A stretch of DNA of 64,000 nucleotides from Bacteroidia bacterium (GTDB lineage Bacteria > Bacteroidota > Bacteroidia > J057), in the NCBI GenBank assembly GCA_033391075.1, contig JAWPMV010000001.1:2046001-2110000 (forward strand), given 5' to 3'. Below, piece by piece: positions 5,740 to 31,240 of this stretch. How positions within the stretch are numbered: position 1 is the stretch's first letter; each line of letters starts with the position of its first letter. The notes below the pieces were generated by a model. That model ran no database searches and was not told the DNA's origin. It worked only from the letters and a program-made list of their open reading frames with translations. The translations under genes were made by a program, and so were the position numbers.

Positions 5740-7591
5740 TTTTTTCTAACCATACATTCAACATCACGAGCATCCATATTTTCATCCAGTGTTCTCTTTT
5801 GCCTCCTGCAAGGAACCTATTCCATTTATCCAGAAGATACTCTCCTTCTATAAATTTCTTGCTTGCAAGAGACTGGATATGTTTCTCACAGAAATCCTTC
5901 ATCGATTCCCGTATCCAGAGCGCCCAGGGAAATACGAATCCCATTTTAGGACGATGAACTACTTCTCCAGGTAACAGCTTCCCAAGAGATTCGACCAAAA
6001 GCTTTTTAGGATAGTCAGGTTCTTTGAGTCTATCCGGAACTGCCAGGGCATATTCTACCAATTCATGATCAAAGAAAGGAACCCTCACTTCCAGCGAACT
6101 TGCCATACTCATTTGATCTGTATCTCTCAATAACACATTCTGGGTATAGGTCATCATTTCCCCTACAGAAACCTGGCTAAAGAGAGGCATAGATTCTACT
6201 TTTTGTAATCCTGGATCTTTCAGGAGGCTAGCCAGAGTAGATTGAGCTATGTCAGAGTTTTTCAGTATCCCATTGATTTCCTTGTCGTCATGAATTTTTC
6301 GGAAAATCGGGTATAGCTCCGAAAAGTCAGGTTTCTCTATCGCCAGGATTTCTTGTAAACGTGCACTCTTATGGCTATTGTAGAGGCTGCTGATTCCGGC
6401 ACCTATCCCAGAACGTATCATATGAGGAACTGCATACATCCCCATTTTTTTCAACTTCTGGTAACGTTTAAATACCGGATATCCTGCAAAGAGTTCATCT
6501 CCTCCTAATCCTGATAGAGCAACTGTAAAGCCTTCATTTTTGGTGGCTTTGGAAACCACATAGCTATTTAAGCCATCCCCACTCGGATGATCCATTGCGT
6601 CTAATGCCTCCGGTAATTCTGTGAGGAAATCTTCCGGTTTTAATTTGATGGGATGATGTTCTGTCTTGAATTTCTTTGCTATGAGAGTTGCATAATAGGA
6701 CTCATCATACTGCTTTTCATCAAAAACAATCGAAAAGGTATGGATGGCTTGTTCACTACTTTCCGCCAATAGGCCAACAACTGCACTCGAATCAATGCCA
6801 CCAGATAAAAAAGCGCCTAAAGGAACATCAGCAATTTTTCTTCTGGAAACAGCTTCTCTTAACCTTTGATGAAGCTCTTCTTTTACCTCTTCCCGATCGA
6901 TATTTTCTGCAAGCTTTCTGTTTTTTGCCAAATCCCAGTATTGTTCCAACCTGAGTTCCTTATGCTTCCAAATACCAAAACTGGCAGCTGGGAGCATATA
7001 CACATCTTTTAACAGGGTGTTGGGGGAATTGACAGAATAGTATTTTAGGTATTCCGGAAGGGCCTGGTGATTGAGAACTGCTGGTACCATACCAGAAGCC
7101 AATAAACTTCTGATTTCAGAGGCAAATATGAGTTGATTATCCTGAATGCTGTAGTAAATAGGTTTTATCCCCATCCGATCTCTGGCGATAAAAAGTTCCT
7201 GCTCGACCTGATCCCAAATAGCAAAGGCAAACATGCCATTCATTTTTTTCAAACAATCAGGACCCCAGGTAGCATAGGCAGCCAGGATAACATCCGTATC
7301 ACTTTGACTTTGGGTTTCCGATAAATTCAGTTCTGCACGAATCTCCTGATAGTTGTACACTTCACCATTATAGATAATGGTATAGCGTCCACTTTTGTCA
7401 TGCATGGGCTGGGTGGCAGCATCACTCAGGTCTATGATAGATAACCTTCTGTGTCCAAGTGCAATCCCTTTTTCTACAAAATGCCCTCCTGCATCCGGAC
7501 CTCGATGCTGCATACGCGCTGTCATCTGTTCCAAAACAGTGATAGAGGCAGTTTCCAGAAGATCGCAAGTATATCCGGCTATTCCGCACAT
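5723..7591 (-). CDS. asnB: Asparagine synthase-type amidotransferase (glutamine-hydrolysing)
   Basis: This 622-aa protein has the two-domain AsnB layout. The N-terminal class II glutaminase starts with the nucleophile Cys2 (MCGIAGY), followed by RGPDAGG and GHRRLSIIDLS. The C-terminal ATP-pyrophosphatase domain has the PP-loop AFLSGGIDSSAV and LSGLGGDELFAGYP. Free asparagine synthetases and sugar- or polymer-amidating paralogues share this build. Because it is embedded between a glycosyltransferase and a secreted glycan-associated protein, amidation of a uronic acid in the polysaccharide is a reasonable alternative to asparagine synthesis. It starts nine bases after the preceding glycosyltransferase stop. 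The enzyme class is sure, the acceptor is not. Confidence 0.93.
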   Translation of the reverse strand: MCGIAGYTCDLLETASITVLEQMTARMQHRGPDAGGHFVEKGIALGHRRLSIIDLSDAATQPMHDKSGRYTIIYNGEVYNYQEIRAELNLSETQSQSDTDVILAAYATWGPDCLKKMNGMFAFAIWDQVEQELFIARDRMGIKPIYYSIQDNQLIFASEIRSLLASGMVPAVLNHQALPEYLKYYSVNSPNTLLKDVYMLPAASFGIWKHKELRLEQYWDLAKNRKLAENIDREEVKEELHQRLREAVSRRKIADVPLGAFLSGGIDSSAVVGLLAESSEQAIHTFSIVFDEKQYDESYYATLIAKKFKTEHHPIKLKPEDFLTELPEALDAMDHPSGDGLNSYVVSKATKNEGFTVALSGLGGDELFAGYPVFKRYQKLKKMGMYAVPHMIRSGIGAGISSLYNSHKSARLQEILAIEKPDFSELYPIFRKIHDDKEINGILKNSDIAQSTLASLLKDPGLQKVESMPLFSQVSVGEMMTYTQNVLLRDTDQMSMASSLEVRVPFFDHELVEYALAVPDRLKEPDYPKKLLVESLGKLLPGEVVHRPKMGFVFPWALWIRESMKDFCEKHIQSLASKKFIEGEYLLDKWNRFLAGGKREHWMKIWMLVMLNVWLEKNEIEY

Positions 7592-7600
7592 AAAATTAAG

Positions 7601-14825: not shown

Positions 14826-15899
14826 CTAGCTTGCATGTTTATATAGGTGGTCGTCCAATAATCCTTCCATCTGTTGGTCGTAACCTTTTGCCTGCCACCA
14901 ATCCAGGTATTCTTTGTGTGTGGGCATCCAGGCACCCAGAGATTGGCTGTATTCTATTATCTCTCTAAAGAACTTACCCATTTCTCCCTGCATATAATTG
15001 TTGTGCCAAAGGAAGGTACATACCCCATTTACTTCCTTAATTCGCTCTATGATCAATTTGCAGAGAGCAAGAGAATAGTGGTATTTGCTTTTCTTTTTCA
15101 GAAAAAGAGCTACATCCATAATCACGAGCGGAAAAATGAAGAGTTTGCTTCTTTCTCCTACTTTTTTACGCAGTCGAAAAGGGTAACACATCCCATTTCG
15201 AAAACCTACTTCCCGTGAAAATCCGAGACTGGCATCATAGCGAAAGTTTAAGTTCTCGAGAATTTCCCAGGTATGAGGAATTTCTAAATTGAGGAAATGG
15301 CTACGATATCCGATAAGGACTTTTTTTGTGATGCTTTCCAGTTTGTTTTTCTCTTCCTGCATTTTTTGCTCATCTGCATAAGCATCATGCCCTCCATGCA
15401 ATCCGATTTCGTGTCCAGCTGCTTGTATTTTAGCTATTTCATCTTCTACCTGCTCGATACGATAATTAAAATCCCTCTCAGGAGATTCGAGCGCAAGGAA
15501 ATAAAAACTCGAGCTTAGCTTGTATTCATTTAGGAGTTCCAGCGTATGCTCGATTCTCCAGGACTCATTGATCTTTCTATTGCTGATAGACCTAAAATGA
15601 TAGTTTGCCTTAGGTCGATTACCGGAAAGTAAGCCCACGCTTCCCCAAAATAGATTGCCTTTCAAACTATTATGGTTATAGAGCAGGTCAATGTCGTGGC
15701 TCACACACATGGCGAAAGTTTTCCCCTCCGGATATTCTGGGCGAAAACCCTGCTTGTGTAGAAATTCTGAAACTTCAGCGAAATAATAACTTTTAGAATC
15801 CTGCGAGGATATCTTTTTATTCTTCTTTGGTATAATGGGTTTTTGCTGGAATTCGTATTCCAGATTTAAAAGTTTATATAGCTGATCCGTTTTAATCAT
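14826..15899 (-). CDS. Polysaccharide deacetylase-like protein (NodB/CE4 fold)
   Basis: The product is 357 aa, without signal peptide. Motif 1 is present as AMCVSHDIDLL (Asp69/Asp71), where the NodB fold normally has TFDDG. Motif 2 appears as GHEIGLHGGHDAY, and GYRSHFLNLE matches the R-x-P motif region loosely. FLWHNNYM near the C-terminus corresponds to the late His motif. Cytoplasmic members of this family occur in Bacteroidota glycan clusters and probably remove acetyl groups from lipid-linked or nucleotide-linked sugars. It shares a 4-base overlap with the upstream Gfo/Idh gene. Fold call is good; catalytic activity on a defined sugar is inferred. Confidence 0.82.
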   Translation of the reverse strand: MIKTDQLYKLLNLEYEFQQKPIIPKKNKKISSQDSKSYYFAEVSEFLHKQGFRPEYPEGKTFAMCVSHDIDLLYNHNSLKGNLFWGSVGLLSGNRPKANYHFRSISNRKINESWRIEHTLELLNEYKLSSSFYFLALESPERDFNYRIEQVEDEIAKIQAAGHEIGLHGGHDAYADEQKMQEEKNKLESITKKVLIGYRSHFLNLEIPHTWEILENLNFRYDASLGFSREVGFRNGMCYPFRLRKKVGERSKLFIFPLVIMDVALFLKKKSKYHYSLALCKLIIERIKEVNGVCTFLWHNNYMQGEMGKFFREIIEYSQSLGAWMPTHKEYLDWWQAKGYDQQMEGLLDDHLYKHAS

Positions 15900-16945
15900 T
15901 TACTCGCTGCCAGAATAGCCTTTGCTTCATTGCGAATTTGATAAATCCGCTCTATTATTTCTACCACTTTCAAACCTTCCAATGCATTGGTACTAATGCT
16001 CGTTTCTCCTCTTAGCGTTTTGATTACATTTTCGACCACATATATATGATTAGCAGCTGAACCTTTGTAGTATCCATAGTCATTGGGGGGATTTGCTGGT
16101 GGTAATTCCGGCATATCGTAATCCTTTATATTACAAAACTCAACTTCATTCATGTATTGTCCTCCGACTTTTACCGATCCATTTTCTGCAACTATGGTAA
16201 GGCTACTTTCGAGGTTTGAGTGAAAAACTGCGGTTGAGTAATTAATGCAGCCCATTCCCCCTTTCATGAAGCGGAAATTTACCATTCCACTGTCCTCAAA
16301 ATCTGTAGAATGTAGATGGGAAAAATCACTGAATTTCCCCTCGATATCCGTAATATCTCCAAATAACCAAAAGAGAATATCTATAAAGTGAGAGAACTGG
16401 GTAAAGAGCGTACCCCCGTCCATATCTTCAGTACCTTTCCATCCTCCAGGTTTATAATATCTGTCATCCCGATTCCAGTAGCAATTGGTTTGCACCATAT
16501 AAATTTTGCCAAGAATTCCTTTTTCTATAATGTCTTTCAACCATACAGATGGGGGAGAATAGCGGTTTTGCATAACGCAGAAAACCTGTTTGGACATTTG
16601 CAGGGCTTTAAATATGATTGACTCGCAACCTGCTTTGGTCAAGGCCATGGGTTTTTCGATAACCACATGCTTTGAAGATTCCAATACCTTGAGCGCATGG
16701 ATCTCATGCAGCCCATTAGGAGTTGCAACCGTAACAACATCCAGGTCTGGTTCTGCCTTCAACATTTCATCGATATCGTGATAGTAGTTTCCATGAAACT
16801 CCTCCAGATTCGCATCTTTTTTATCTTTGATATCGCATACAGCCTTAACTTCCGCATAAGGATTGTTCCGGATCATCAAGGCATGTCGCTTGCCAATGTG
16901 GCCGTGTCCTACAATTCCGAACTTGAGTATTTTATTTTCTAACAT
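15896..16945 (-). CDS. Gfo/Idh/MocA family sugar oxidoreductase (WbpB/WlbA-like)
   Basis: This 349-aa NAD(P)-dependent enzyme has an N-terminal Rossmann motif (GIVGHGHIGKRHA) and the family's catalytic VIEKPMAL with Lys98. The C-terminal half is the alpha/beta dimerisation domain (GGTLFTQFSHFIDIL). In glycan clusters this family oxidises C3 of UDP-GlcNAc or UDP-GlcNAcA (WlbA/WbpB) before amination. It sits directly after the PseA-type amidotransferase gene (five bases), as WbpB homologues do in amidino-sugar loci. No WbpA, WbpD or WbpI partner is visible here, so its substrate is open. Confidence 0.88.
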   Translation of the reverse strand: MLENKILKFGIVGHGHIGKRHALMIRNNPYAEVKAVCDIKDKKDANLEEFHGNYYHDIDEMLKAEPDLDVVTVATPNGLHEIHALKVLESSKHVVIEKPMALTKAGCESIIFKALQMSKQVFCVMQNRYSPPSVWLKDIIEKGILGKIYMVQTNCYWNRDDRYYKPGGWKGTEDMDGGTLFTQFSHFIDILFWLFGDITDIEGKFSDFSHLHSTDFEDSGMVNFRFMKGGMGCINYSTAVFHSNLESSLTIVAENGSVKVGGQYMNEVEFCNIKDYDMPELPPANPPNDYGYYKGSAANHIYVVENVIKTLRGETSISTNALEGLKVVEIIERIYQIRNEAKAILAASK

Positions 16946-16950
16946 GGTGC

Positions 16951-18096
16951 TTAATATCTTCTGATATTTTTAATCAGGGGTCTCAGAAATTTTAAGAAAG
17001 GATATTGTTCAAAAAAGGATTTGGTATGTCCGTATGCCTTGTGTGGAATAGGAGGCATTTTCATCAATTCATCAAATTCTTTTTCGGTGAATTTCAATTT
17101 CTTCAACACAAACTCTTTGTCCTCCTCCAGAAGATCAGGATCATAAATAGGTAATTTAAGTTCTTCCAGAGCTTCTTCTTTGGTCAGTTGACCTGAGCAG
17201 ATAAGGCTGGAAAGGTGTGCCTTTCTTTTGTCTACCTTGAATTTGGTCGGGAGAATATAGCCTTGATAAAATCGGGTGAAAATGGATTCATAATGTTTGC
17301 CTCCATAATCTCTCCATTCCAATTCTTCTATGATGGTCTTCTTCGCATCATCTTTATCATAAGGCATGTAATTAAGAATCTGGATGGTTTCAACCTGCTT
17401 GATATTGAGGTAATACAAGCGCTGGAAATAGCCTAAATGAGGATAAGATTTTATGGGACGTGTGCCGAAGCGTTTTTGGATATCCTTAATATTTGTAAAG
17501 TCCTTGTATATCCAGGGAGAAGGCAAAATCGCCTCTGTAGCGATATTATTGCCACTCAACATATACTTGATCTTGTTTTTTGAAGCCAATTTGATGAGAG
17601 CAGCGTAAATGGCATGATCAGTTAGCGCTTCAATATCGATCACAGATGCTTTGAAAAAAGCAACCTGCATATCTCTGAATTCTTCCCAGTCAATGACATA
17701 GGTGTAAAGATCTATTCCCAGTTTGCTGACAACATTTTCTATGTTTTTGACAGCTAATTCAGAATTCCAGCCATTATCGAAGTGAACGGCTAAGGGGCGA
17801 AGTCCCATTTTATGGGCCTGATAAGCCAGGTATGTACTGTCAACCCCGCCACTTAGACCGATTAGACAATCATAATCTTTTCCCTTTCCTGAAGCTTTTA
17901 TTTTGCTAATAATTGCTTCTCTTTCGCTTTTTGCTGGATCCCCCTGACTGAAATCATATTTAGGGAGCGCATCATACATATTGCAGTAACTGCAAACGCC
18001 CTGCTCATCAAAGCTCATTCCTGGATCATCATGAGTGTCAAGGATACATCGGGAGCATTGACGTGCCTGTGTTACCGGCTTTTCTATGGTAGTCAT
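16951..18096 (-). CDS. pseA: N-acetyl sugar amidotransferase (PseA/WbpG/WbuX family)
   Basis: The product is 381 aa. A Cys4 zinc-type site is formed by CSRC (C14, C17) and CSYC (C35, C38), followed by the PP-loop LSGGVDST (81-88) of N-type ATP pyrophosphatases and KYMLSGNNIATEAI. This is the signature of the family that converts an acetamido group on a sugar to an acetamidino (amidine) group, using ammonia from a HisH/HisF-like pair. Known members act on ManNAc3NAcA in Pseudomonas O-antigen and on pseudaminic or legionaminic acid in other bacteria. The hisH2 and hisF2 genes lie just upstream. It has a 131-base leader, unusual within this cluster. Confidence 0.93.
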   Translation of the reverse strand: MTTIEKPVTQARQCSRCILDTHDDPGMSFDEQGVCSYCNMYDALPKYDFSQGDPAKSEREAIISKIKASGKGKDYDCLIGLSGGVDSTYLAYQAHKMGLRPLAVHFDNGWNSELAVKNIENVVSKLGIDLYTYVIDWEEFRDMQVAFFKASVIDIEALTDHAIYAALIKLASKNKIKYMLSGNNIATEAILPSPWIYKDFTNIKDIQKRFGTRPIKSYPHLGYFQRLYYLNIKQVETIQILNYMPYDKDDAKKTIIEELEWRDYGGKHYESIFTRFYQGYILPTKFKVDKRKAHLSSLICSGQLTKEEALEELKLPIYDPDLLEEDKEFVLKKLKFTEKEFDELMKMPPIPHKAYGHTKSFFEQYPFLKFLRPLIKNIRRY

Positions 18097-18227
18097 TGGG
18101 GTGGTTATGAATGTGTTATCTTAGTAAAATTACAGATAATGAAAGGGAAAAATAAGTAAAAAAGCCTGATCCATTACATAAGTTGAAAATATCGGATTAG
18201 CTCGATCTTCCCACTTTCCATCAAAAG

Positions 18228-18995
18228 CTATATTTGTTCAAATACTTCTTTTTTTAAGTCTTTTTGGGAAGGGTAATTGATCAGCACAGCTCTATGCTTT
18301 CCCTGAAACACAAATAAGCTCCCTGCTGCACAAGCCGAAGAACCCGCCTGGATCGCTTCCCGGAAATTGCTCACACCATTGGCACCCCCACAAGCAATGA
18401 GGGGAACTTCTATTTCTTTGGCTATTTTTTCAACAAGTGTAAGGTCATAGCCTTTTTGGGTACCGTCCAGATCTACAGAGTTGAGAAAAATTTCTCCTGC
18501 TCCCAATTGAACAGCCTCTTTCGCAAAATCCAGAGGGTCTCTCTTTGTGTTCTTGCCTTTGCTATGCTGATAGACTTTATAAGAACCAAAGAGGTTCTTT
18601 TTTACATCTATCGAAACCACTACTGCCTGACTCCCAAATTGTCGAGCAGCCTCTGTGATCAGACCTGGATTATTAAATGCACTTTGATTGAGTACAATTT
18701 TTTCTATCCCATTGAACAAGAGTTCTTTGATCTGTTCTATGCGAGTAATTCCTCCTCCATATGCCAAAGGGATAAAGGCTTCACTGGCAATTTCCTTAAT
18801 CTTGTCCAGATCCGGTTCTCGACCTTCTTTGCTTGCATCTATATCAAGGATTACAATTTCATCGACCTCCTTTTCATTGAAGATCTTTACTGCATTGATC
18901 GGATCTCCTACATATTTGAAGTCCTTAAATTTTACACTTTTTACCAGCCCACCATTTTTCAAAAGTAAAACCGGTATTACCCTAACTCTTCTCAT
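18228..18995 (-). CDS. hisF2: HisF-like acetamidino modification protein (HisF2/AglZ type)
   Basis: This 255-aa TIM-barrel protein is homologous to the cyclase subunit of imidazole glycerol phosphate synthase. The phosphate-binding loops are kept (AYGGGITRIEQI, ACGGANGVSNF) and Asp130 is present (VVVSIDVKK). Position 11, where true HisF has the catalytic Asp of PCLDV, is Leu (VIPVLLLKNG). This substitution, and the place between hisH2 and pseA, mark it as the paralogue that channels ammonia to the sugar amidotransferase, not as a histidine enzyme. Its ATG overlaps the hisH2 stop by one base (TGATG). Confidence 0.92.
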   Translation of the reverse strand: MRRVRVIPVLLLKNGGLVKSVKFKDFKYVGDPINAVKIFNEKEVDEIVILDIDASKEGREPDLDKIKEIASEAFIPLAYGGGITRIEQIKELLFNGIEKIVLNQSAFNNPGLITEAARQFGSQAVVVSIDVKKNLFGSYKVYQHSKGKNTKRDPLDFAKEAVQLGAGEIFLNSVDLDGTQKGYDLTLVEKIAKEIEVPLIACGGANGVSNFREAIQAGSSACAAGSLFVFQGKHRAVLINYPSQKDLKKEVFEQI

Positions 18996-19612
18996 CAGTA
19001 ATTATTTGCAAAGTTTGTCAATAGTTTCAGGCCAAATTTGTGGCTCTTTTCCGGATGAAATTGTACACCTACTACATTTTCATTTTCTACGCCTGCAATG
19101 AAGTCATATCCATATTTCGATCTCAACAATACATCTTTTTCCTCTTCGCATTTCATATGGTAAGTATGGACAAAATAAAAGCGAGGCTCCTTGAACATAT
19201 CTTCAAATAGCTTGCTTTCCTTCTGGGTCTCCACCTCATTCCATCCCATATGAGGTATTTTAAGGCCAGCATCCATCTTTTCTTCCCGGAATTTTATGGT
19301 TTTCCCCTTAATCCACCCCAATCCTGGCAATTCTCCTTCTTCACTGCCTTCAGTCAGTAATTGCGCACCCAGACAGATACCCAATACAGGAATTTTATCT
19401 TCCTGAACCCGTTTATTTAACGTTTCAAAATAAGGGGCACTGCTCAATTGGGCCATGCCATAATCAAAAGCCCCCACACCCGGAAGAATCAATTTCTCAG
19501 CCTCTTGGATTTCCTCATCGGTAGAGGAAATCCGAGATTTTACACCCGCTTTTTTGAGCATGTTTTTGATTGAGCCCAGATTTCCAACTCCGTAGTTTAT
19601 GATGGTTATCAT
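18995..19612 (-). CDS. hisH2: HisH-like glutamine amidotransferase subunit
   Basis: This 205-aa class I glutaminase releases ammonia from glutamine. It has the oxyanion strand LPGVGAFDYGM, the nucleophile Cys80 in LGICLGAQLL, and the His-x-Glu pair in VQFHPEKSHKFG. Alone it would be called HisH of histidine biosynthesis. Here it is fused by overlap to a HisF paralogue lacking Asp11 and lies in a glycan cluster next to pseA, so it most likely feeds sugar amidine formation. It starts six bases after the flippase gene stop. Confidence 0.93.
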   Translation of the reverse strand: MITIINYGVGNLGSIKNMLKKAGVKSRISSTDEEIQEAEKLILPGVGAFDYGMAQLSSAPYFETLNKRVQEDKIPVLGICLGAQLLTEGSEEGELPGLGWIKGKTIKFREEKMDAGLKIPHMGWNEVETQKESKLFEDMFKEPRFYFVHTYHMKCEEEKDVLLRSKYGYDFIAGVENENVVGVQFHPEKSHKFGLKLLTNFANNY

Positions 19613-19618
19613 GTATAT

Positions 19619-21088
19619 CTAGCTTTGATTTTTTTCTGTTTCCTCTTCGTTTAATTTTTGTCTTGGATCAAAGGATTGAATCAGTTCTTTATTTTTCAGG
19701 ATCCAAAGTACAGTAACTCCAAGAATAAAAAGGCTTATGCCTACTTTATACAGCCAATATATATCTTTGAGAATATAGACGATGACTGTGGAAATAATGA
19801 TCCCGAACAACCAATGGAAAGGGAAGTAATTGAGATCTCCCATTTGTCGATACTCTTTGATGAAAAAGCCTGCCATTCCCATAAACAAAAAACCGATAAA
19901 TGTGGTAATTGCTGCAGCTTCTATCCCATATATGGGAATGAAGATGATATTTAGCACAATGTTTAGTACACCCGCACTAAAGGAAATTAGCCAAATCCGA
20001 TGGGCTTTCTCATAGTAAAAGAGTTTCACGGCAAAGCCCGCGTAAAGGGGCCGATAATTGAAACCCATGATCATGATGATAGCAAGAGAATAGGCCTCCT
20101 GAAGGTCTGGATTGTTAATAAGGATACTGAAGATTTCCTTGAACCAAAGACAGACCAAAAAACTGAAGATCATCATTGTCCCTTGCCAGATAAAGATTAA
20201 GTCACGACTTAATCTGAAGGCATCCTTTCTCTTAAGTCCTTGTAAAAACTCAAAAATAACTGGATTGATGGCCATACCCGTTCCATCTACAAAGGCATTG
20301 AAGTAATTCCCAAAATTTCCTGCCAGGTTGAAGATTCCTATTTTTTGAATGTTTACCTGATAAAGATCCATCACAATTCTATCAGATGAGGTCAAAAGAT
20401 AAGAGCCATAATAATAGGGAATCATGGGAAAGGCTACTTTCATTTTTGCCTTAATCAATCTCCATTTAAAATTGAAAATGGGAAGCAATTTTAATTTGTA
20501 ATAGAGAAAGTAGCTAAAGAACAAAAAGGAGAGGATACTTCCGATGAACCTACTCCAGAACCAGCCCATATAACCCATTTTCTCAAAGGTGATTAACCAA
20601 AGATTTATAGCAATGGTAATGAATCCGACCACGATCATCTGAAAGGCAATGGGGCCAGGTTTTTGAGCTACCTGTTGATGTAGAATCCCATATTCTGTAG
20701 TTGCATTTAGGAAAGCACTGGGTATGGTATGCATCAAAACGATGGCCCATCTGTTTTCTACAGCTTCTTCTGGCACAACCCAATAAATGATCAAACCCAT
20801 GAGAAATGCATAGAATAAAGACCATAATGAGATAAAGCCATGCATTTGCCGCCAAAGCCATTTATACTGTTTTCTGTAATGAAAAAAAGCATTTGAGAGA
20901 ACGATCTTGGTCCCCAATAAATGGATAGCAGACAGTGCAGCCAAATAGGAATAGATTATACCCGCTACTCCATAATCCAGACGAGTCAAGTCTTGAGTTA
21001 TAATAGGAAGTATAAGGATGTTGGCCACCTGTGGAATTTGAGGAGCCAATCCATAAACTGCGCTATTTGAGAGAATCTTTTTTATCAA
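19619..21088 (-). CDS. wzx: Wzx-type oligosaccharide flippase
   Basis: This 489-aa polytopic membrane protein has about 12-14 hydrophobic segments and belongs to the MOP/Wzx exporter superfamily that flips undecaprenyl-linked repeat units across the inner membrane. The amphipathic N-terminus IKKILSNSAVYGLAPQIPQV is typical of the family, with polar MDLYQVNIQKIGIFNLAGN after helix 7. The start is a TTG at 21088 (TTGATAAAAAAG); no suitable ATG lies upstream in the 26-base gap, and starting later would remove the conserved N-terminus. It pairs with the Wzy-type polymerase encoded at 10398-11684. Confidence 0.9.
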   Translation of the reverse strand: MIKKILSNSAVYGLAPQIPQVANILILPIITQDLTRLDYGVAGIIYSYLAALSAIHLLGTKIVLSNAFFHYRKQYKWLWRQMHGFISLWSLFYAFLMGLIIYWVVPEEAVENRWAIVLMHTIPSAFLNATTEYGILHQQVAQKPGPIAFQMIVVGFITIAINLWLITFEKMGYMGWFWSRFIGSILSFLFFSYFLYYKLKLLPIFNFKWRLIKAKMKVAFPMIPYYYGSYLLTSSDRIVMDLYQVNIQKIGIFNLAGNFGNYFNAFVDGTGMAINPVIFEFLQGLKRKDAFRLSRDLIFIWQGTMMIFSFLVCLWFKEIFSILINNPDLQEAYSLAIIMIMGFNYRPLYAGFAVKLFYYEKAHRIWLISFSAGVLNIVLNIIFIPIYGIEAAAITTFIGFLFMGMAGFFIKEYRQMGDLNYFPFHWLFGIIISTVIVYILKDIYWLYKVGISLFILGVTVLWILKNKELIQSFDPRQKLNEEETEKNQS

Positions 21089-21114
21089 GCTTTTCTATCC
21101 TAAACTCATTCGCC

Positions 21115-22269
21115 TCACTTGATGCATGATTTTATGAGTTGTGCAACATATCGAACTTCTTCTTCCTTCAAAGAACTGGAGCTGGGTAAGCTCAAACATT
21201 CTGAATGAACCTTTGCAGAAATATCTTCTGATTGGATATAAGGCAAATGTCCAAACATTGGGAGTTGGTTCATCGGCACCCAAAGCGGCCTGGTTTGAAC
21301 CTTGTTATCGAGGAGTTTTTTGATCAGGTTTTCCTGATGACTACTTCTAATGGTGAATAACCAATTATTGACTTCGACTTCTGGATGGATGTTTTGAAAA
21401 GAAATCTCTTCCAACCCAGAAAGTTCCTGCCGATAGATATCGGCATTCCTTGTCCGAACTGCTTTAAATTCATCCAATTGCTCCATCTGTGCAAGGCCCA
21501 TAGCTGCCAGGATATTGACCAGTCTATAATTGTAGCCTATCTCATCATGTACATAGGCAAATGGGTCTGCTTTTGCCTGGGTGGTGAGATGTTTGGCACG
21601 TTGGGCCTTTTCTTCATCTGAAGTAACAATCATACCTCCCCCTCCGGTCGTAATGATCTTATTTCCATTAAAACTAAAACAGCCCAGTTCTCCGAAAGTA
21701 CCTGCATGTTGGCCTTTATAGCGGCTGCCTAAAGCTTCGGTAGAATCTTCAATCATGACAAGTCCATAGCGTCTGGAAATTTCTAGCAGTTTGTCCATCT
21801 CAGCCATATTTCCCAGGACATGGACAGGCATGATTGCCTTTATTCTCTTTCCATCTTTTTTGTAGATCCTTCCGCTTGCTCCTTCTTCCGTTTGCTCGCT
21901 CAGAAATTCTTCCAATAAGTTCAAATCCAGCTGCCAACTTCCTTCCTCAATGTCTATGAAGAGAGGATTGGCTCCCGCATAGGCCACAGAGTTTGCACTG
22001 GCTATAAAGGTGATATTGGGTACGATGACATAATCATCCCTTTCGACCCCTGCCAGAAGCAAGCAAATATGGAGAGCGGCTGTACCATTTACTGTCGCAA
22101 TGGCATAGGGAGCTCCACTATAGCTAGCTATGGATTCCTCGAAAGCAGTTACATAAGAACCTACAGAGGAAACCCAATTTGTGTCCAGGCATTCCTTGAT
22201 ATAGGTCCATTCATTTCCGCCCAGGGTAGGAATGGATAAAGGAATGGGCTCAGATATTATAGATTTCAT
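21115..22269 (-). CDS. legC: LegC-family PLP aminotransferase
   Basis: This 384-aa DegT/DnrJ/EryC1/StrS-fold aminotransferase makes a 4-amino-4,6-dideoxy sugar from the 4-keto product of LegB. PLP-site residues are visible: VNGTAALH, the Asp in MIEDSTEALGS, and the Schiff-base Lys204 in FSFNGNKIITTGGGG. The N-terminus IPLSIPTLGGNEWTYIKECLDTNWVSS is typical of the LegC/NHT subgroup (given here as PTLGGNEWTYIKECLDTNW). Its start overlaps the legB stop by 20 bases, and LegB-LegC pairs are the hallmark of legionaminic-acid and related pathways. Confidence 0.92.
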   Translation of the reverse strand: MKSIISEPIPLSIPTLGGNEWTYIKECLDTNWVSSVGSYVTAFEESIASYSGAPYAIATVNGTAALHICLLLAGVERDDYVIVPNITFIASANSVAYAGANPLFIDIEEGSWQLDLNLLEEFLSEQTEEGASGRIYKKDGKRIKAIMPVHVLGNMAEMDKLLEISRRYGLVMIEDSTEALGSRYKGQHAGTFGELGCFSFNGNKIITTGGGGMIVTSDEEKAQRAKHLTTQAKADPFAYVHDEIGYNYRLVNILAAMGLAQMEQLDEFKAVRTRNADIYRQELSGLEEISFQNIHPEVEVNNWLFTIRSSHQENLIKKLLDNKVQTRPLWVPMNQLPMFGHLPYIQSEDISAKVHSECLSLPSSSSLKEEEVRYVAQLIKSCIK

Positions 22270-23236
22270 GTTTATAGGTGCTTAGGTTATCTTTTTCTGC
22301 AAACCATTTGATGGTTTCTTTAATACCGGCTGTCAGGTCAAACATAGGTTCCCAGTCGGTGAGTGCTTTGATTTTTGCATTTGCTCCCAAAAGTCGCCGA
22401 ACCTCACTTTTTCCCGGCCTCATTCTCGCTGGATCCTGGATGATTTTTGCGGAAGGATTGATCTGATTGATCATATTCATGGCCAGTTCCCCTATACTGA
22501 TTTCATCCTGTGTAGCGATATTGATTTCTTCTCCTATGCAGTTTTCTGACCGGGCAATGGCTTCAAATCCTCTTACGGTATCTTTTACAAATACCAGGTC
22601 TCGCGTAGGGCTAAGATCACCCAACTTAATTTCCTCCATTCCATTTAGTAATTGGGTAATAATCGTTGGGATTACCGCTCGAGCCGATTGGCGAGGACCA
22701 TAGGTATTGAAAGGTCTTACAATGCTTACAGGTAATTCAAATGAGCGATAAAAAGATTCTGCTATTCGATCGGCGCCTATTTTTGTGGCACTATACGGAG
22801 ATTGCCCCTGGAAAGGGTGTTTTTCATCTATAGGGACGTATTGAGCAGTTCCATAAACTTCTGAGGTGGAGGTAACCAGAACTCTTTCCGTTCCCAGCAT
22901 TTTGGCTGCCTGTAGGATATTGAGTGTGCCTTTTATATTTACATCTACATAACTGTCTGGAGAATGATAGCTATAAGGAATGGCGATCAAAGCTGCGAGA
23001 TGAAATACAATATCAACATCTTCCATGGCTACTCTCACCCCATTTGGGTCTCTTACATCTCCTGCAAAAAACTCTATCTGATCTCTTTTCTCCTTAGGCA
23101 GACTATCCAGCCAGCCATTGCTGCCAAATGAATTGTAAAGAACAAATGCCTTTACCTGATAGCCTGATTCGATTAGATGTTCGACCAGGTGGCTACCGAT
23201 GAATCCGTCTGCTCCAGTTACCAGTACTTTTTTCAT
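22250..23236 (-). CDS. legB: NDP-sugar 4,6-dehydratase, LegB family
   Basis: This 328-aa extended SDR enzyme is the length expected for LegB. It has the Rossmann motif TGADGFIGSH, the active-site STSEVYG (Thr/Ser-Glu typical of 4,6-dehydratases) and Y148-x3-K152 in SPYSATKIGAD, followed by RPFNTYGPRQSARAVI. It should dehydrate an NDP-GlcNAc to the 4-keto-6-deoxy form, the first dedicated step towards legionaminic acid. In Campylobacter the equivalent enzyme uses the GDP-linked sugar, consistent with the PtmE-type gene next door. A 56-base gap separates it from that gene. Confidence 0.92.
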   Translation of the reverse strand: MKKVLVTGADGFIGSHLVEHLIESGYQVKAFVLYNSFGSNGWLDSLPKEKRDQIEFFAGDVRDPNGVRVAMEDVDIVFHLAALIAIPYSYHSPDSYVDVNIKGTLNILQAAKMLGTERVLVTSTSEVYGTAQYVPIDEKHPFQGQSPYSATKIGADRIAESFYRSFELPVSIVRPFNTYGPRQSARAVIPTIITQLLNGMEEIKLGDLSPTRDLVFVKDTVRGFEAIARSENCIGEEINIATQDEISIGELAMNMINQINPSAKIIQDPARMRPGKSEVRRLLGANAKIKALTDWEPMFDLTAGIKETIKWFAEKDNLSTYKHEIYNI

Positions 23237-23292
23237 TGTCTTTTTGTTGAGTAAGATTTAATAATGGGTGCTATTTGTGGTGGAAAGCCGAA

Positions 23293-24342
23293 TTAAAATT
23301 TGATTTTAGTAACGTCCTCCTGGGCTTTTTTGAAATCTTCAGGCTTACCTATGTCAAGCCAATACCCCAGAATCGGATAATGGGTCACTTTTTTGCCTGA
23401 CTGTATCAGGGATTCAATCAAATCTGTGGCATTGTAGAAAGTCTCCTTGGGAATAGACTCTGTAAATGAGCGTTTCATCAGGTAAATACCTGCATTTGAA
23501 TAATAGGTATAAGTGGGCTTCTCTTTGAATGAAACAATGCGATCATTTTGAGATTCGAGCACAGCATATGGAACATTCACTTCATAGGGAGTAGTTGCGA
23601 TTGTAAGGTCTGCATCAGACTCCATGAATGATCTGAAAAAATCTTCATAGTCTATATTGGTCAGGAGATCGGAATTCATCACCAGAACATAGGGATTCTC
23701 AAATGCATCGATCTTACTGATTGCCCCTAGAGTTCCCAGAGGTTGGGTCTCTTTGACATATTGAAAATTTATCCCTCTCTCAGATCCATCTCCAAAATAT
23801 CGGAGGATTTGGTCTCCCAGATATTTGACGGTGATGTAAATATTGTCAATCCCATATCGGGATAACTGATCTGTATTGTATTCAATAATGGGTTTATCAT
23901 TTACTTTAAGAAGAGGCTTTGGAGTCTCATCCGTCAGAGGCTGAAGTCTGGAACCTCTTCCGCCGGCCATAATGACTGCGTCTATAGGTAGAACACTTCT
24001 CTTTACCGAAAAGTCAATAATTCTTGAGATACGCTTTTCTTTATCCAGCATAGGAAGCAGACTTACCTTCCCATTTTTTGCACTCTCTACATCATTCAGG
24101 TCAAATTCACACTTTTTGAGGTACCTGAAATTCTTGTTCATAAATTGCTCTACCGGCGCATTTAGGTCAAATCCTTTTAAAAGTGCTCTTCGGATATCAC
24201 CATCCGTCAGCGTACCTTCCATTTTTCCGTCTTCACTTGTAATAAAGAGCGTCAGAGATCCATTGGGAATTTCATTGATCCGTTCCAGAGCATCTCTCAT
24301 ACTCTGGGTGGTGATAATGGTGTTTTCTTTATAAGAATTCAT
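23293..24342 (-). CDS. ptmE: CBS-domain nucleotidyltransferase (PtmE-like)
   Basis: This 349-aa protein starts at an ATG at 24342 (MNSYKENTI), where ATGA overlaps the legH stop by four bases; codons further upstream are open but lie inside legH. Residues 1-115 form a CBS-domain pair (GSLTLFITSEDGKMEGTLTDGDIRR and VSLLPMLDKEKRISRIID parts). Residues about 122-349 are a sugar-1-phosphate nucleotidyltransferase (GGRGSRLQPLTDETPKPLL, VLVMNSDLLTNID). This domain order is that of Campylobacter PtmE, a GlcN-1-phosphate guanylyltransferase that commits GlcN to GDP-linked legionaminic-acid synthesis. Base specificity here is inferred. Confidence 0.88.
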   Translation of the reverse strand: MNSYKENTIITTQSMRDALERINEIPNGSLTLFITSEDGKMEGTLTDGDIRRALLKGFDLNAPVEQFMNKNFRYLKKCEFDLNDVESAKNGKVSLLPMLDKEKRISRIIDFSVKRSVLPIDAVIMAGGRGSRLQPLTDETPKPLLKVNDKPIIEYNTDQLSRYGIDNIYITVKYLGDQILRYFGDGSERGINFQYVKETQPLGTLGAISKIDAFENPYVLVMNSDLLTNIDYEDFFRSFMESDADLTIATTPYEVNVPYAVLESQNDRIVSFKEKPTYTYYSNAGIYLMKRSFTESIPKETFYNATDLIESLIQSGKKVTHYPILGYWLDIGKPEDFKKAQEDVTKIKF

Positions 24343-24959
24343 AGGGCATGTTGTGGGTTTCCGATAACGATAGAATTGTCTTTGATGGGCTTGACGACAA
24401 CGGTGCCAGCCCCGATGATCACGTTTTTTCCTATGGTAATTCCTGGTTTTACAACAGCATTTGCTCCCACAAGAGTTCCTGAACCAATTGTGACATTGCC
24501 GCAGAGAGTTGCACCGGGAGCGATATGTGCAAATTCTCCAATTTGGCATTCATGTTCAATGGTGGAGGAAGTATTACATATTACTCCATCCCTAATTTTT
24601 ACTAAAGAACTGATATTTGAATTTGGGGCGATCATTACTCCATTTCCCAGCTCTGCAGTTCTTGCTACCCAGGCTGTAGGATGGATGATGTTGACCGGAT
24701 CTCCCCAGATATCCTTCATTTTTTCACTTAGCTTTTTGCGGACTGCATTTTCTCCAATCGATACAAAGAAATCTGTAAAAGCCGGAAGGCTTCTTTTATC
24801 AATAGAATCATCTGTACCCAGGTAAGGCAGTTTAAAAGGGTTAAGGTCCTTTCTGTTTAATTCATAATAGCCAAGGATACTTCTTTGCATATCGTAAAGA
24901 ATCTCACACGCCACAAATGCATGTCCTGAATATCCAAAAAGGGCTACTTGTTTAGGCAT
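24339..24959 (-). CDS. legH: Amino-sugar N-acetyltransferase (PglD/LegH family)
   Basis: This 206-aa protein has the PglD architecture: an N-terminal Rossmann-like substrate domain (QVALFGYSGHAFVACEIL) and a C-terminal left-handed beta-helix with hexapeptide repeats (NGVMIAPNSNISSL, IGSGTLVGANAVVKPG). The catalytic-type His is in SSTIEHECQIGEFAHIAPGA. It should acetylate the C4 amino group created by LegC, giving the NDP-2,4-diacetamido-2,4,6-trideoxyhexose. It lies between neuB (23 bases upstream) and the PtmE-like gene. Confidence 0.9.
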   Translation of the reverse strand: MPKQVALFGYSGHAFVACEILYDMQRSILGYYELNRKDLNPFKLPYLGTDDSIDKRSLPAFTDFFVSIGENAVRKKLSEKMKDIWGDPVNIIHPTAWVARTAELGNGVMIAPNSNISSLVKIRDGVICNTSSTIEHECQIGEFAHIAPGATLCGNVTIGSGTLVGANAVVKPGITIGKNVIIGAGTVVVKPIKDNSIVIGNPQHAL

Positions 24960-24982
24960 ATTTATTAGACAGTTTTGCTTGT

Positions 24983-25999
24983 TTATGAAAAATCCTGAAT
25001 GGCAAGTTTATGTCCACTTTTCAAAGGATGCCTCAATTCTTTTCCTAATAAATCCTCGAGCTTCATAGGAGAAATTCCATCACCCGGTCTGAGCATGATA
25101 AGATCTTCAGCGGTCAATGACGTGCCTGCTGGAAGGTCGTGTTTCAGATGTATACTTTTCCTGACTATAGTGATATTCTTCTTTTCTGAAGGAGAAGGTT
25201 TCTTCTCTTTTTCTCCCAATGCCAATTCAATATTGCGGATCATGCTAATCATCTGATTTAACTCATCGGGCTCCAGGGAGGCCTTGTGATCTGGGCCCTG
25301 CATATTCCTATCAAGGGTAAAATGTTTTTCTATACAAGTGGCACCCATTGCTACCGCTGCTACCGGTACCTCTATCCCCAGGGTGTGATCAGAATAGCCT
25401 ACTTTGATTCCGAAGGTTTCCTGAATCTGATACATTGCTCTTAAATGAACATCCTTCATGGGAGTTGGATACTCCGTATTGCAGTGTAAAACCCAAAGTT
25501 TTTCTCTTGATGCTCCATGAGCCAAAAGGATCTCTATTGCTGCACCTACTTCTTCAAGGGTTGACATACCCGTCGAAATGACAGTTGGTTCTTGCTGAAA
25601 TGCAATTTTTCGTAGATACGGGAGATTGGTAATCTCCCCGGAGGGTATTTTCCATAATCCCAAATCCAGTTCAGCCAATAAGTCAATGCTGTCGAGGTCA
25701 AAAGCAGTTGAAAGAAACTTAATTCCCAGTCTATCGGCCTCCTCCATGAGGATATGATGAGCATCTACATCCAGCTCAAGCTTTTTGAGCATCTCAAATT
25801 GACCGGATGATTCTCCTATATTCTTGACCTGGTATTCAGCTTGTTTGGCTTTCTTGCTTACTATTTTCTCAGCCTTAAATGTCTGAAACTTCACATAATC
25901 CGCCCCTGCCATAGCAGCAGCTGCTATCAACTCTTTAGCAAGATTCAGGTCGCCATTATGGTTTACACCAGCTTCAGCGATAATTAAGGTGGGTTGCAT
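24983..25999 (-). CDS. neuB: Nonulosonic acid synthase (NeuB/LegI family)
   Basis: This 338-aa enzyme condenses a 6-carbon amino sugar with phosphoenolpyruvate to a 9-carbon sialic-acid-like sugar. The NeuB barrel has EAGVNHNGDLNLAKELI, YVKFQTFKAEKIV, STGMSTLEEV, GYSDHTLGIEVP and EKHFTLDRNMQGPDH. The last about 60 residues form the SAF domain (KDEIKKGTxL-like LKHDLPAGTSLTAEDL, then RPGDGISPM). NeuB, LegI and PseI cannot be told apart with certainty by eye. LegB/LegC/PtmE neighbours favour LegI (legionaminic acid). It is the first biosynthetic gene of the cluster. Confidence 0.93.
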   Translation of the reverse strand: MQPTLIIAEAGVNHNGDLNLAKELIAAAAMAGADYVKFQTFKAEKIVSKKAKQAEYQVKNIGESSGQFEMLKKLELDVDAHHILMEEADRLGIKFLSTAFDLDSIDLLAELDLGLWKIPSGEITNLPYLRKIAFQQEPTVISTGMSTLEEVGAAIEILLAHGASREKLWVLHCNTEYPTPMKDVHLRAMYQIQETFGIKVGYSDHTLGIEVPVAAVAMGATCIEKHFTLDRNMQGPDHKASLEPDELNQMISMIRNIELALGEKEKKPSPSEKKNITIVRKSIHLKHDLPAGTSLTAEDLIMLRPGDGISPMKLEDLLGKELRHPLKSGHKLAIQDFS

Positions 26000-26031: not shown

Positions 26032-29000
26032 CTATTGAATTGAGATCTTTTTAAATAGACTTCCCTCACTACTTTCTACTTGAAGTATGTAAATTCCGGG
26101 AGGGTAAGGGGAAATATCAAATTGAATTTTTGGATTCTGGAGGCCTGGATTCCAACTCCGCTTATGGATCAATCTCCCATTTAAATCTCGCAGATGGACC
26201 TGGAGTTCCTTCTGAATTGGATGCTTCACTTCAACAGAAAATAGATCGAAAGCTGGATTGGGATAAATGGATAATTGTGTTCCCAAAATATCTTCTTCAA
26301 TGCCTACGGGATACTGAAGAACGACAATACATTTCTCTGCCGTATCTGATCCACAGTTGTTCTGGAGATCTGTGGTTATCAAACGTACACAATAGGTCCC
26401 GGTATCTGCATAGGTATGCGAGGGACTAATGGCTGTACTGCTATTGCCATCACCAAATTCCCACAAATAGGAACCAAAGCTAGATTGATTCACAAAGGTT
26501 GCCCTTCTGCTTACTCCTCCTATTACAGTATCAGGAATGGAGAATTCTGATTCGGGTAAAGGAGTGATCAATACGCCTATGGTATCTTTTGCAGTACAAT
26601 TATTAGAATTACTTACTTCAACGCTATATAGCCCACTAGAGGTGATGGTTATTTGCTGACTGCTTTCTCCGGTACTCCATAGATAGGATAAACCAGGATT
26701 CCCTGCATCAAGCAATAGGGATTCACAGACAGATTGATCACTTCCGAGATTTACTGTGGGGAACGTATCAAAACCAGTAATATTAATGGTATCTGTCAGG
26801 ACACATCCTCTGGGTTCCTGGACAGAAACAGAATATATACCTGGAGTCGAGATGGTAATTGTTGGGCTAGTGGCACCTGTATTCCAATTAAATAAGGAAG
26901 CTGCACCATAATTGGTAGTCAATATATCTCCACATAATACCCCATCTGCTGGTAATCCTGCATCCTGGGGGGTTTCCACAAAGGTCGAATCCGTTACAAT
27001 ACAATTTGCCCCATCATCGGCAGTCAACACATACATGCCTGTTTGGTTAATCGGTATGGAAGAAGCCTGAGAGTTTGTATTCCATAAATAGTTAGTAGCA
27101 AATACCCCAGGATCTAAAATGAAATCGGTACAAGAGTAAATAGAATCCTGCATGTTTAAGGGAACATTCACATTCACGGTAACATTCCTAATGGGACTCC
27201 TGCAACTTGTGGTGTATGGTACCACCTCAAGATCATATAAATAATTGTATTGATTGGTTGCTGTATTTGTGAGGGAAGAAGAAGCGGGTATCCTTGCAAT
27301 GCCTTCTAACACAAAGGGGAACTTTGGTTCAGGAAGATCGTTTCTGAAAATATTACCCCCTACACGGTTTTGAACTTCAAGTGTATATCCGTTCCCTTTC
27401 GGAAGGAAAATATTGACAGTCAATACTTCTTTTGAATAGGGGGGGACCAGGAATTGCGGATACCTTCCAATTTCGACTCTGTTAGAATCTAATACTACGA
27501 TCTCAAAGGAAAAATTTTGGGTAGAAATGGGGAATACTGCCAGGCTACGAATTAGAACATCTTGTAGGGCATCAAACTTTATCCCTCGGGTATCAAATCC
27601 ATCATTTCTAACCGCAGTGGAGATTGAAAGATCTTCTGGGCCTAATTGGAAGGATTTACTATTGACATTTTCAATACTTAAGCGAAAAGTATCTTCAATG
27701 AAACGGCTATAATCAGGGGCTACTTCCAAGAGCCCACCACTTTCACCTCTCCAAAAAACATAAGAAGGAGTAGGAACGATATCGCCAGATAAAACCACTT
27801 CCTGCGGGCCACATACAGTTGTATCCATGAGCAGGGACGGATCAGGTACATCCAGGACGAATACAGCGATTTCATCTGTATCTATACAGTTCCCAATATT
27901 GGCAATTACGGTGAATGTATCTGTTTCAACGACTGTTACCGTGGGATTTGTACTTCCATCCTGCCAGAGATAACTGGCTCCTGCGTTTGTTGCATCCAAT
28001 ACAAGTGGACCTCCAACTCCTTGGCATAAAATGGTATCATTCCCCAGATTTATTTCAGGGGTTGGCAAGACACTAACTTCAGCTTGCCCCCTTGCACCGG
28101 GACAACTTGGGATTTCTACTTCCCAATCAAAGAAATAATAAAGCCTATTATTGGGAAAAGGAGTAAATGAAGATTTAACCTCAAATGCTCCGGGGATGGT
28201 ATAGGGAAAAGCAGGAACTGTAGAAAAACTGATAGCCAGTGAGCCTGCACCACTAAAATTATGGGCAGTAATGGTATAATCTTCTCCTTTGGGAAACTCC
28301 ATACCAATTGGAATCCGCGTTTTCACGAAAGCTGTGGGTATAGTAACAGACTTACTCATCAAAAGATCTCCATCACTATCGTGCACCCTGAGCTCAAAAG
28401 TAACCGGGCCATCTGCATAAGTATGGATTGCATTAACTTTTGCGGCAGTTTCTACTTTAAATCTTTGTCCATTTCCAATAGACCTCAAGTATCTTATAGT
28501 CCCAAAAGTTGTATCTACCAAACCAACCCTATCCGATACATAATGAAAATACTCTGGATAAATATTGGTGGTAACATCAGGGCTAAGTGTAAAGGTACTC
28601 CCAGACCCTATCGGATTTCCTCCTGTGCTGCTGTCATACCAAACAGTCCCATCTCCTAAATCCGGTATACTCACAGTTAATTCTTCTCCTAAACAAATAC
28701 TCGTATCATTAAGCACAGGGGTAGGTAAATTACTCAGGATACTTACTCCGATACTATCTCTGCTAGTTCCGCTTCCATCCGTTACATCTACCCAATAAAT
28801 TCCGCTTGTGCTGACTGTGATACTTTGGCTGCTTTCGCCAGTGCTCCAATTGAAGCTAGCTCCGGCATTCCCAGCATCTAATACAATCGAGTTGCCACAA
28901 CTTATGGTATCTGCCCCAAGATCTACAATAGGAGCAAATCCGTAAGAATGAAGAGGAAATAATAATGATAGAGCTAAACAGCCTAGTATATGCAAGGCTT

Positions 29001-29040
29001 TTTCGGTGAGTTTCTTGGAATATGGAAGCAGTAGATGCAT
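26032..29040 (-). CDS. Secreted T9SS cargo with Ig-like/PKD repeats and type A sorting domain
   Basis: The product is 1002 aa with an N-terminal signal (ALHILGCLALSLLFPLHSYG). At least five modules carry a shared pattern of a Cys, V/L-L-D-A-G/T-N-A/P-G and WSTGESSQ-x-ITV followed by GIYWVDV or GLYSVEV. One PKD-type module (FGDGNSSTAISPSHTYADTGTYCVRL) precedes the end. The last about 75 residues are a T9SS type A sorting domain (LSIYPNPAFDLFSVEV, GIYILQVESSEG). It should be exported by the type IX system and fixed to the cell surface or released. It ends 32 bases before neuB, so it may head the glycan transcript. Confidence 0.9.
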   Translation of the reverse strand: MHLLLPYSKKLTEKALHILGCLALSLLFPLHSYGFAPIVDLGADTISCGNSIVLDAGNAGASFNWSTGESSQSITVSTSGIYWVDVTDGSGTSRDSIGVSILSNLPTPVLNDTSICLGEELTVSIPDLGDGTVWYDSSTGGNPIGSGSTFTLSPDVTTNIYPEYFHYVSDRVGLVDTTFGTIRYLRSIGNGQRFKVETAAKVNAIHTYADGPVTFELRVHDSDGDLLMSKSVTIPTAFVKTRIPIGMEFPKGEDYTITAHNFSGAGSLAISFSTVPAFPYTIPGAFEVKSSFTPFPNNRLYYFFDWEVEIPSCPGARGQAEVSVLPTPEINLGNDTILCQGVGGPLVLDATNAGASYLWQDGSTNPTVTVVETDTFTVIANIGNCIDTDEIAVFVLDVPDPSLLMDTTVCGPQEVVLSGDIVPTPSYVFWRGESGGLLEVAPDYSRFIEDTFRLSIENVNSKSFQLGPEDLSISTAVRNDGFDTRGIKFDALQDVLIRSLAVFPISTQNFSFEIVVLDSNRVEIGRYPQFLVPPYSKEVLTVNIFLPKGNGYTLEVQNRVGGNIFRNDLPEPKFPFVLEGIARIPASSSLTNTATNQYNYLYDLEVVPYTTSCRSPIRNVTVNVNVPLNMQDSIYSCTDFILDPGVFATNYLWNTNSQASSIPINQTGMYVLTADDGANCIVTDSTFVETPQDAGLPADGVLCGDILTTNYGAASLFNWNTGATSPTITISTPGIYSVSVQEPRGCVLTDTINITGFDTFPTVNLGSDQSVCESLLLDAGNPGLSYLWSTGESSQQITITSSGLYSVEVSNSNNCTAKDTIGVLITPLPESEFSIPDTVIGGVSRRATFVNQSSFGSYLWEFGDGNSSTAISPSHTYADTGTYCVRLITTDLQNNCGSDTAEKCIVVLQYPVGIEEDILGTQLSIYPNPAFDLFSVEVKHPIQKELQVHLRDLNGRLIHKRSWNPGLQNPKIQFDISPYPPGIYILQVESSEGSLFKKISIQ

Positions 29041-31215: not shown

Positions 31216-31240
31216 ATCAGAAAGTAGGATCAGATTTAGG

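Follow-up and report, generated by a model that had tools for sequence, protein, structure and literature searches.

In amidination of sugars by the WbuX/HisH2/HisF2 trio, ammonia is released from glutamine by HisH2 and the acetamido oxygen is activated with ATP by WbuX. Such enzymes act on 2,3-diacetamido-mannuronate in Pseudomonas aeruginosa (WbpG/HisH2/HisF2), with MMP1081/AglXYZ as the corresponding system in Methanococcus maripaludis, and on legionaminic acid (Leg) or pseudaminic acid (Pse) in Campylobacter and Legionella (PtmG/PseA). Here we consider a trio encoded in a 64,000-nucleotide stretch of DNA (the window: contig JAWPMV010000001.1, positions 2,046,001 to 2,110,000, or G000:C1:2046001-2110000, C1 being this contig) from a Bacteroidia bacterium with a genome of 9.49 Mb in five contigs (GCA_033391075.1), where it lies in one glycan gene cluster with genes for Leg biosynthesis. 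A preliminary description had placed the amidine on Leg. The phylogeny and gene neighbourhoods of WbuX lead us to suppose, with moderate confidence, that the trio acts on a 2,3-diacetamido-uronic acid, and that the glycan would contain two unusual sugars, this uronate and Leg.

How does the locus compare with the described systems? The Leg pathway of Campylobacter jejuni and Tannerella forsythia UB4 comprises LegB, LegC, LegH, LegG, LegI and LegF, with PtmE. The window likewise has LegB, LegC, a LegH-type protein, a NeuB (=LegI) of Leg type and a PtmE-like protein, but LegG and LegF are to be sought outside the cluster, LegG being on another contig beside a formyltransferase gene. As in the P. 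aeruginosa and M. maripaludis systems, HisF2 scores above the AglZ/HisF2 cut-off and a WlbA-like gene is adjacent; unlike in those systems, searches of this genome gave no WbpI-type epimerase or WbpD, and the Wbp-like genes are scattered. The gene order Wzx, HisH, HisF, WbpG-like is one that we take the window to share with P. aeruginosa. With PtmG/PseA, the window's WbuX has in common the family TIGR03573 and, at family level, the chemistry, but it belongs to a different clade from the one (clade B, below) in which PtmG and PseA would fall, to judge from that clade's gene neighbours. The Wbp/Vim linking-sugar pathway of Porphyromonas gingivalis also has WlbA/WbpB-type, VimE-like and AsnB-type genes, but the window's VimE match is far below cut-off, and its Leg genes and trio are extra.

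Amidino sugars of this sort are in print. Leg5Am7Ac is known from Legionella (PMC3766260), amidino-Leg has been described for Aliivibrio (PMC7371886), and comparable uronate cases are MMP1081 and a five-enzyme route to 2,3-diacetamido-mannuronic acid (ManNAc3NAcA; PMC10622841). T. forsythia, which possesses a type IX secretion system (T9SS; PMC7468200), is also a member of the Bacteroidota with an acetamidino group in a surface glycan: strain ATCC 43037 has Pse5Am7Gra in its O-glycan, and those papers leave the amidine gene unsettled (PMC6120980, PMC6388019). The nonulosonate there is Pse and here Leg, but the T. forsythia glycan supplies the amidino nonulosonate of a T9SS-bearing member of the Bacteroidota that the preliminary description had not known to be described. 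Among the titles and opening lines of abstracts listed from the open-licence literature, we found none on amidino-Leg in Bacteroidota, and a search directed at Cytophagales gave no paper. Nevertheless, since an amidino nonulosonate in T9SS Bacteroidota and amidino-Leg have both been published, the present system is not of a new kind.

Two clades of WbuX and their gene neighbours

Relatives of WbuX were collected from 22 genomes of the organism's own order, from a two-query search of 395 Bacteroidota genomes and from a scan of named genomes (best 80 of 561 loci). Proteins of less than 320 or more than 480 amino acids, or with fewer than 300 matched residues, were dropped, and those with an identical C-terminal part were counted once; this gave 156 proteins from 143 sources. 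Neighbouring genes were called by tblastn, at identity thresholds of our own choosing, with queries from the window's genome and two relatives. The loci, being drawn by similarity to the WbuX of the window or of locus L046, are a non-random sample in which many contigs end near the gene, and Fisher tests on the clade counts ignore relatedness among loci.

The tree of the 156 proteins consists of two clades, the split between them having a support of 100: clade A (123 proteins, the window's included) and clade B (33). A NeuB or LegF match was present within 9 kb for 31 of the 33 clade B proteins, the remaining two lying beside LegB/LegC (L176) and beside PseC (L242), and for 14 of the 123 in clade A (window included), where the NeuB match (35%) of one further locus, L156, falls just beyond the 9-kb limit. 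The window's WbuX is, then, outside the clade whose usual neighbours are nonulosonate genes. WlbA-like neighbours (at least 40% identity) were found for 31 members of clade A and none of clade B, and WbpE-like neighbours for 28 members of clade A; either or both occurred in 39/123 and 1/33, respectively, and the count of uronate-type neighbourhoods came to 63/123 and 3/33 when a loose WbpI marker (matches from 29%) was included. When neighbourhoods were labelled as 'nonulosonate only' or otherwise, the label changed 12 times on the tree, against a mean of 31.7 for shuffled labels, and none of 500 shuffles gave so low a number. The HisF2 proteins divide in the same way: model NF038364 (cut-off 310) is passed by that of the window (365.8 bits) and by all five clade A companions tested (345.7-381.2 bits, including that of L042), and is failed by all six clade B companions tested (162.2-213.5 bits). 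Comparison of WbuX with the PDB gave weak matches only (best 31.3 bits), and a plasmid search for WbuX brought up no named reference with a known substrate.

Both clades are represented together in six loci from five genomes (L051 being the other end of the L224 locus), and in L046, L224, L145, L176 and L178 the clade B copy adjoins LegF or Leg genes. Locus L176, from Anaerolineales, has the window's gene order (nucleotidyltransferase, LegB, LegC, Wzx, HisH2, HisF2, WbuX). On the side of the Leg genes away from this trio it encodes a second WbuX, of clade B, and the clade A trio is followed by a WbpE-like gene. L178, from an uncultured Roseivirga, has four WbuX matches, one of them divergent (clade B) and near a LegF match.

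Genes beside the trio and candidates for a uronate pathway

The trio is encoded on the minus strand, as is the whole of the tightly packed glycan cluster, by HisH2 (glutaminase; 18995..19612; TIGR01855, 242.1 bits, cut-off 105.4), HisF2/AglZ (18228..18995) and the WbuX/WbpG-type N-acetyl sugar amidotransferase of the PseA family (16951..18096; TIGR03573, 289 bits, cut-off 203.2). WbuX is followed directly by the gene for a WlbA-like 3-dehydrogenase of the Gfo/Idh/MocA type (15896..16945) and then by one for a distant VimE-like deacetylase of CE4 type (14826..15899). In the window, and likewise in 11 further loci of clade A, WlbA lies no more than 100 bases from WbuX (measured between match ends). 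The best PDB matches of the WlbA-like protein were 3q2i (192 bits) and 3q2k (178 bits), the next best scoring 79 and the WbpB entry 3oa2 37.6; these two entries, labelled only 'dehydrogenase' and 'oxidoreductase', are presumably WlbA of Chromobacterium violaceum and Bordetella pertussis. The VimE-like protein is the genome's only match to the VimE model NF053580, at 79.8-79.9 bits against a cut-off of 440. It also falls just below cut-off for Polysacc_deac_1 (22.1 bits; 23.1), and its SHD-x-D and GLH residues are identical in all three proteins aligned; it had no PDB match up to E = 1. Because the window's WbuX is in clade A, with the WlbA-like and VimE-like genes directly after it, a uronate seems the likelier target of the trio.

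Where might the other steps to such a uronate be encoded? A WbpE-like aminotransferase gene is located at 6966 kb of C1; the best PDB match of its product is 7b0d, a glutamine--scyllo-inositol transaminase (329 bits), followed by WbpE (310 bits). In Pontibacter and Flavobacterium its homologues (54-57%) occur in one locus with homologues of WlbA (62-63%); these are two of the nine loci with a WlbA match of at least 55%. A candidate UDP-N-acetylhexosamine (UDP-HexNAc) 6-dehydrogenase, at 632 kb of C1, passes TIGR03026, and its closest specific models, as well as its closest PDB entry, are UDP-ManNAc dehydrogenases, the models being below cut-off. We take it to be WbpA-like because of its motif and because the genome has no non-hydrolysing epimerase.

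What we observe are gene families and their genomic positions; from them we infer the chemistry of every step and the substrate of the trio, as follows. The 6-dehydrogenase, the window's WlbA-like 3-dehydrogenase and the WbpE-like aminotransferase would together yield a 2,3-diacetamido-2,3-dideoxy-uronic acid, with the gluco configuration if this route operates, since no WbpI-type epimerase was found in the genome. The trio would then convert an N-acetyl group of the uronate to N-acetimidoyl, and the Wzx/Wzy-type cluster would supply two unusual sugars to a surface glycan.

A putative route to CMP-Leg

The other sugar is indicated by the genes between 20 and 26 kb of the window. NeuB/LegI (24983..25999; TIGR03569, 471.9 bits, cut-off 399.65) was compared with the NeuB matches in the loci retrieved, which number 38 when those shorter than 150 residues are set aside (L037 and L139 are the same contig, and some genomes occur twice). 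A Leg context was defined as the presence within 8 kb of LegC (identity 38% or more) or LegB (50% or more). Ten of the 12 matches with at least 45% identity to the window's NeuB had a Leg context and none was near PseC; below 45%, the figures were 0/26 and 9/26. The pattern K[IS]PSGE/HC[NT]TEY was present in all ten NeuB proteins of Leg context, and is fitted by the window's KIPSGE/HCNTEY, and the nine rows of Pse context had KIASFE (five), K[IV]AS[FL]E (two more) or neither (two). Near position 132 of nmNeuB, Gly is associated with neuraminic acid (Neu) or Leg and Phe with Pse (PMC7371886). Aligned with the published sites, the window's NeuB has Gly there, in agreement with the Neu/Leg type and in disagreement with Pse, and at position 184 it has Thr, which matches none of the three types in the part of PMC7371886 that lists the sites, but which all ten Leg-context proteins share. 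By these sequence comparisons NeuB is of Leg type. In L037, a same-family relative, a 319-residue NeuB-like protein (7547-8506; 34%) has residues KIASYD/HCVTIY, which depart both from the Leg pattern and from the one usual for Pse; neighbours of its gene are WlbA, a WecB-type epimerase and a trio of clade A.

NeuB is accompanied by a NeuD/LegH-type N-acyltransferase with a PglD_N domain (24339..24959; TIGR03570, 204.8 bits, cut-off 160.8), a PtmE-like sugar-1-phosphate nucleotidyltransferase (23293..24342; NTP_transferase, 139.7 bits) that has homologues in Leg loci, the 4,6-dehydratase LegB (22250..23236; TIGR04180, 493.3 bits, cut-off 475) and the aminotransferase LegC (21115..22269; TIGR04181, 465.6 bits, cut-off 420). 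The open reading frame of the nucleotidyltransferase extends over 23293-24549, the probable start at 24342 being an internal ATG picked by eye. NeuB, NeuD, LegB, LegC, HisH, HisF2 and WbuX all exceed curated NCBIfam cut-offs, and the gene set around 16951-25999 is real, chance being ruled out. The preliminary description was therefore right to bring together LegB, LegC, a LegH-type protein, NeuB, a nucleotidyltransferase and PseA/HisH2/HisF2, all of them on one strand, and to see in most of them a Leg pathway within a glycan cluster. The nucleotidyltransferase has a clear NTP_transferase domain and a weak CBS domain (PF00571, 19.7 bits, below 24; there is a KpsF-type match over residues 8-108). 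The description is to be amended in that the span of 15896-25999 holds, besides the genes named, the WlbA-like dehydrogenase at 15896-16945 and a Wzx-type flippase at 19619-21088.

LegG and LegF were searched for and are absent from the cluster itself. The genome's sole Epimerase_2 gene, at C4:294592, is of the hydrolysing NeuC/LegG type (TIGR03568, 494 bits, cut-off 235.9). One of its two CTP_transf_3 genes is KdsB (TIGR00466, 231.9 bits, cut-off 155.2); the other, at C1:5086603, is a LegF candidate, scoring 175.5 bits against the PseF model TIGR03584, below the cut-off of 205.7. With these candidates elsewhere in the same genome, we rejected the idea that the pathway is broken, and a complete route to CMP-Leg spread over three genomic places is plausible. 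It would proceed from the nucleotidyltransferase (probably forming GDP-GlcN) through LegB, LegC and a LegH-type acylation to LegG, NeuB/LegI and the LegF candidate. The search of the genome gave a single NeuB and a single WbuX, both in the window. A PseC-family aminotransferase (L080:1471-2613, C1:6025429; 436.7 bits, cut-off 423.5) was considered as a sign of a second nonulosonate route and rejected, because the one NeuB is of Leg type.

Directly beside the genome's only LegG is a gene resembling those for sugar formyltransferases (L004:561-1442, at about 293.6 kb of C4). The Leg locus L230 contains a similar pair (LegG, 59%; formyltransferase, 53%), and this adjacency hints at a possible N-formylation of Leg.

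Which sugar carries the amidine?

Several observations weigh against a uronate as the target. No WbuX of clade B is present in the window, and markers of both kinds lie near its own copy. Neither kind (the loose WbpI marker being counted) was found for 53 of the 123 clade A proteins, and the enzymes of this clade may therefore have more than one kind of target sugar. By path length, the protein closest in the tree to the window's WbuX is that of L149, which has a nonulosonate context; the fork joining them has a support of 30, so that the position of the window's protein inside clade A is tentative. The clades are labelled by their gene neighbours. The 6-dehydrogenase and WbpE-like genes, both of tentative specificity, lie at a great distance from the cluster; a search of the genome for WbpD with the hexapeptide protein of L040 as query gave no clear match (best 35%, 38.6 bits), and no WbpI-type epimerase was found, the sole Epimerase_2 match being NeuC-type. 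Finally, in the Leg locus L042 (NeuB 57-58%, LegC 40%, LegG, LegF, and a LegB-like match of 29% only) the trio is of clade A, and about 60 kb of sequence contains neither a WlbA-like nor a WbpE-like match.

L042 is among the points in favour of the earlier proposal that the trio acts on Leg (free, CMP-linked or as a precursor) to give a Leg5Am-type residue, as are the presence of the Leg genes and the trio in the same cluster, with the genome's one NeuB and one WbuX both there, and the precedents in Legionella and Aliivibrio (PMC3766260, PMC7371886). But it is in clade B that 31 of 33 proteins stand in nonulosonate loci, the window's WbuX being in clade A, and in L176, which shares the gene order, a separate WbuX of clade B flanks the Leg genes and the trio of clade A is beside WbpE. 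We regard an amidine on Leg as unlikely, and not as the best reading, the WbuX and HisF2 of the window grouping with those often found near WlbA/WbpE genes. It is rather improbable, too, that a uronate-type (clade A) trio has been recruited to Leg in this lineage, with LegG, the formyltransferase and LegF coming from other loci, to put N-acetimidoyl, and perhaps N-formyl, Leg on the surface of a member of the Bacteroidota. The many clade A proteins near neither marker would accord with action on another UDP-HexNAc-derived sugar (for example of the N-acetylfucosamine or N-acetylquinovosamine type), the WlbA-like gene then serving some other step, and several trios do have a match of 28-31% over about 220 residues to the LegB query, a short-chain dehydrogenase/reductase, close to HisF2. 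There is no such match beside the window's trio, however, and with WlbA adjacent both there and in 11 other clade A loci this appears quite improbable. The cluster might, lastly, contribute to making an anchoring sugar for T9SS cargo by a route resembling the Wbp/Vim pathway of P. gingivalis (described in PMC7468200), WlbA-like, VimE-like and AsnB-like genes being together beside a T9SS cargo gene; but the VimE match is so far below its cut-off, the AsnB-like protein fails TIGR03108, and the Wzx/Wzy and Leg genes indicate a polymer, so we consider this very improbable. The 2,3-diacetamido-uronic acid is thus the target that we prefer.

Other genes of the cluster

Between LegC and HisH2 lies the gene for the Wzx-type flippase (19619..21088), recognized through homologues: it had no family match of its own, but its homologues in L120 (43-44% identity) and L156 (39-41%) match Polysacc_synt. 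In L120 the homologue precedes HisH2 and HisF2, and the locus has no NeuB or LegF match; in L156 it occurs together with the 35% NeuB match. Downstream of the VimE-like gene, and assigned from Pfam and NCBIfam, are glycosyltransferases (13631-14821, 12471-13634, 11735-12454, 9247-10491 and 7601-8734), a Wzy/ligase-type protein (10398-11684) and a WcaF-like acetyltransferase (8661-9314). The AsnB-like amidotransferase (5723..7591), a candidate of WbpS type with Asn_synthase and GATase domains, passes TIGR01536 (460.4 bits, cut-off 267.1) but not TIGR03108 (460.1 bits, cut-off 816.9). A 927-residue protein with a Laminin_G_3 domain is encoded inside the cluster at 2956-5739.

At its other end the cluster adjoins a gene, likewise on the minus strand, for a protein with a type A T9SS sorting tail (26032..29040; TIGR04183, 55.1 bits, cut-off 23). 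The T9SS setting claimed for the cluster is borne out to the extent of this one cargo protein; no search was made for the secretion system itself. Upstream of the cargo gene, a gene for a pyridoxal phosphate-dependent decarboxylase (RhbB-like) adjoins one for a protein of the fatty-acid-hydroxylase family (29746-32524).

Significance

The presence of WbuX/HisH2/HisF2 beside Leg genes does not by itself signify amidino-Leg. Among the genomes sampled, one clade of the family is associated with nonulosonates and the other is often found with uronate genes, and a single locus may carry both. To point this out is a useful correction rather than the discovery of a new kind of system. The cluster described here may serve as a test case of a two-sugar glycan, with a Leg pathway distributed over three genomic places, and the division between the clades offers a simple rule, yet to be anchored with studied enzymes, for locating positive charge in a bacterial glycan.

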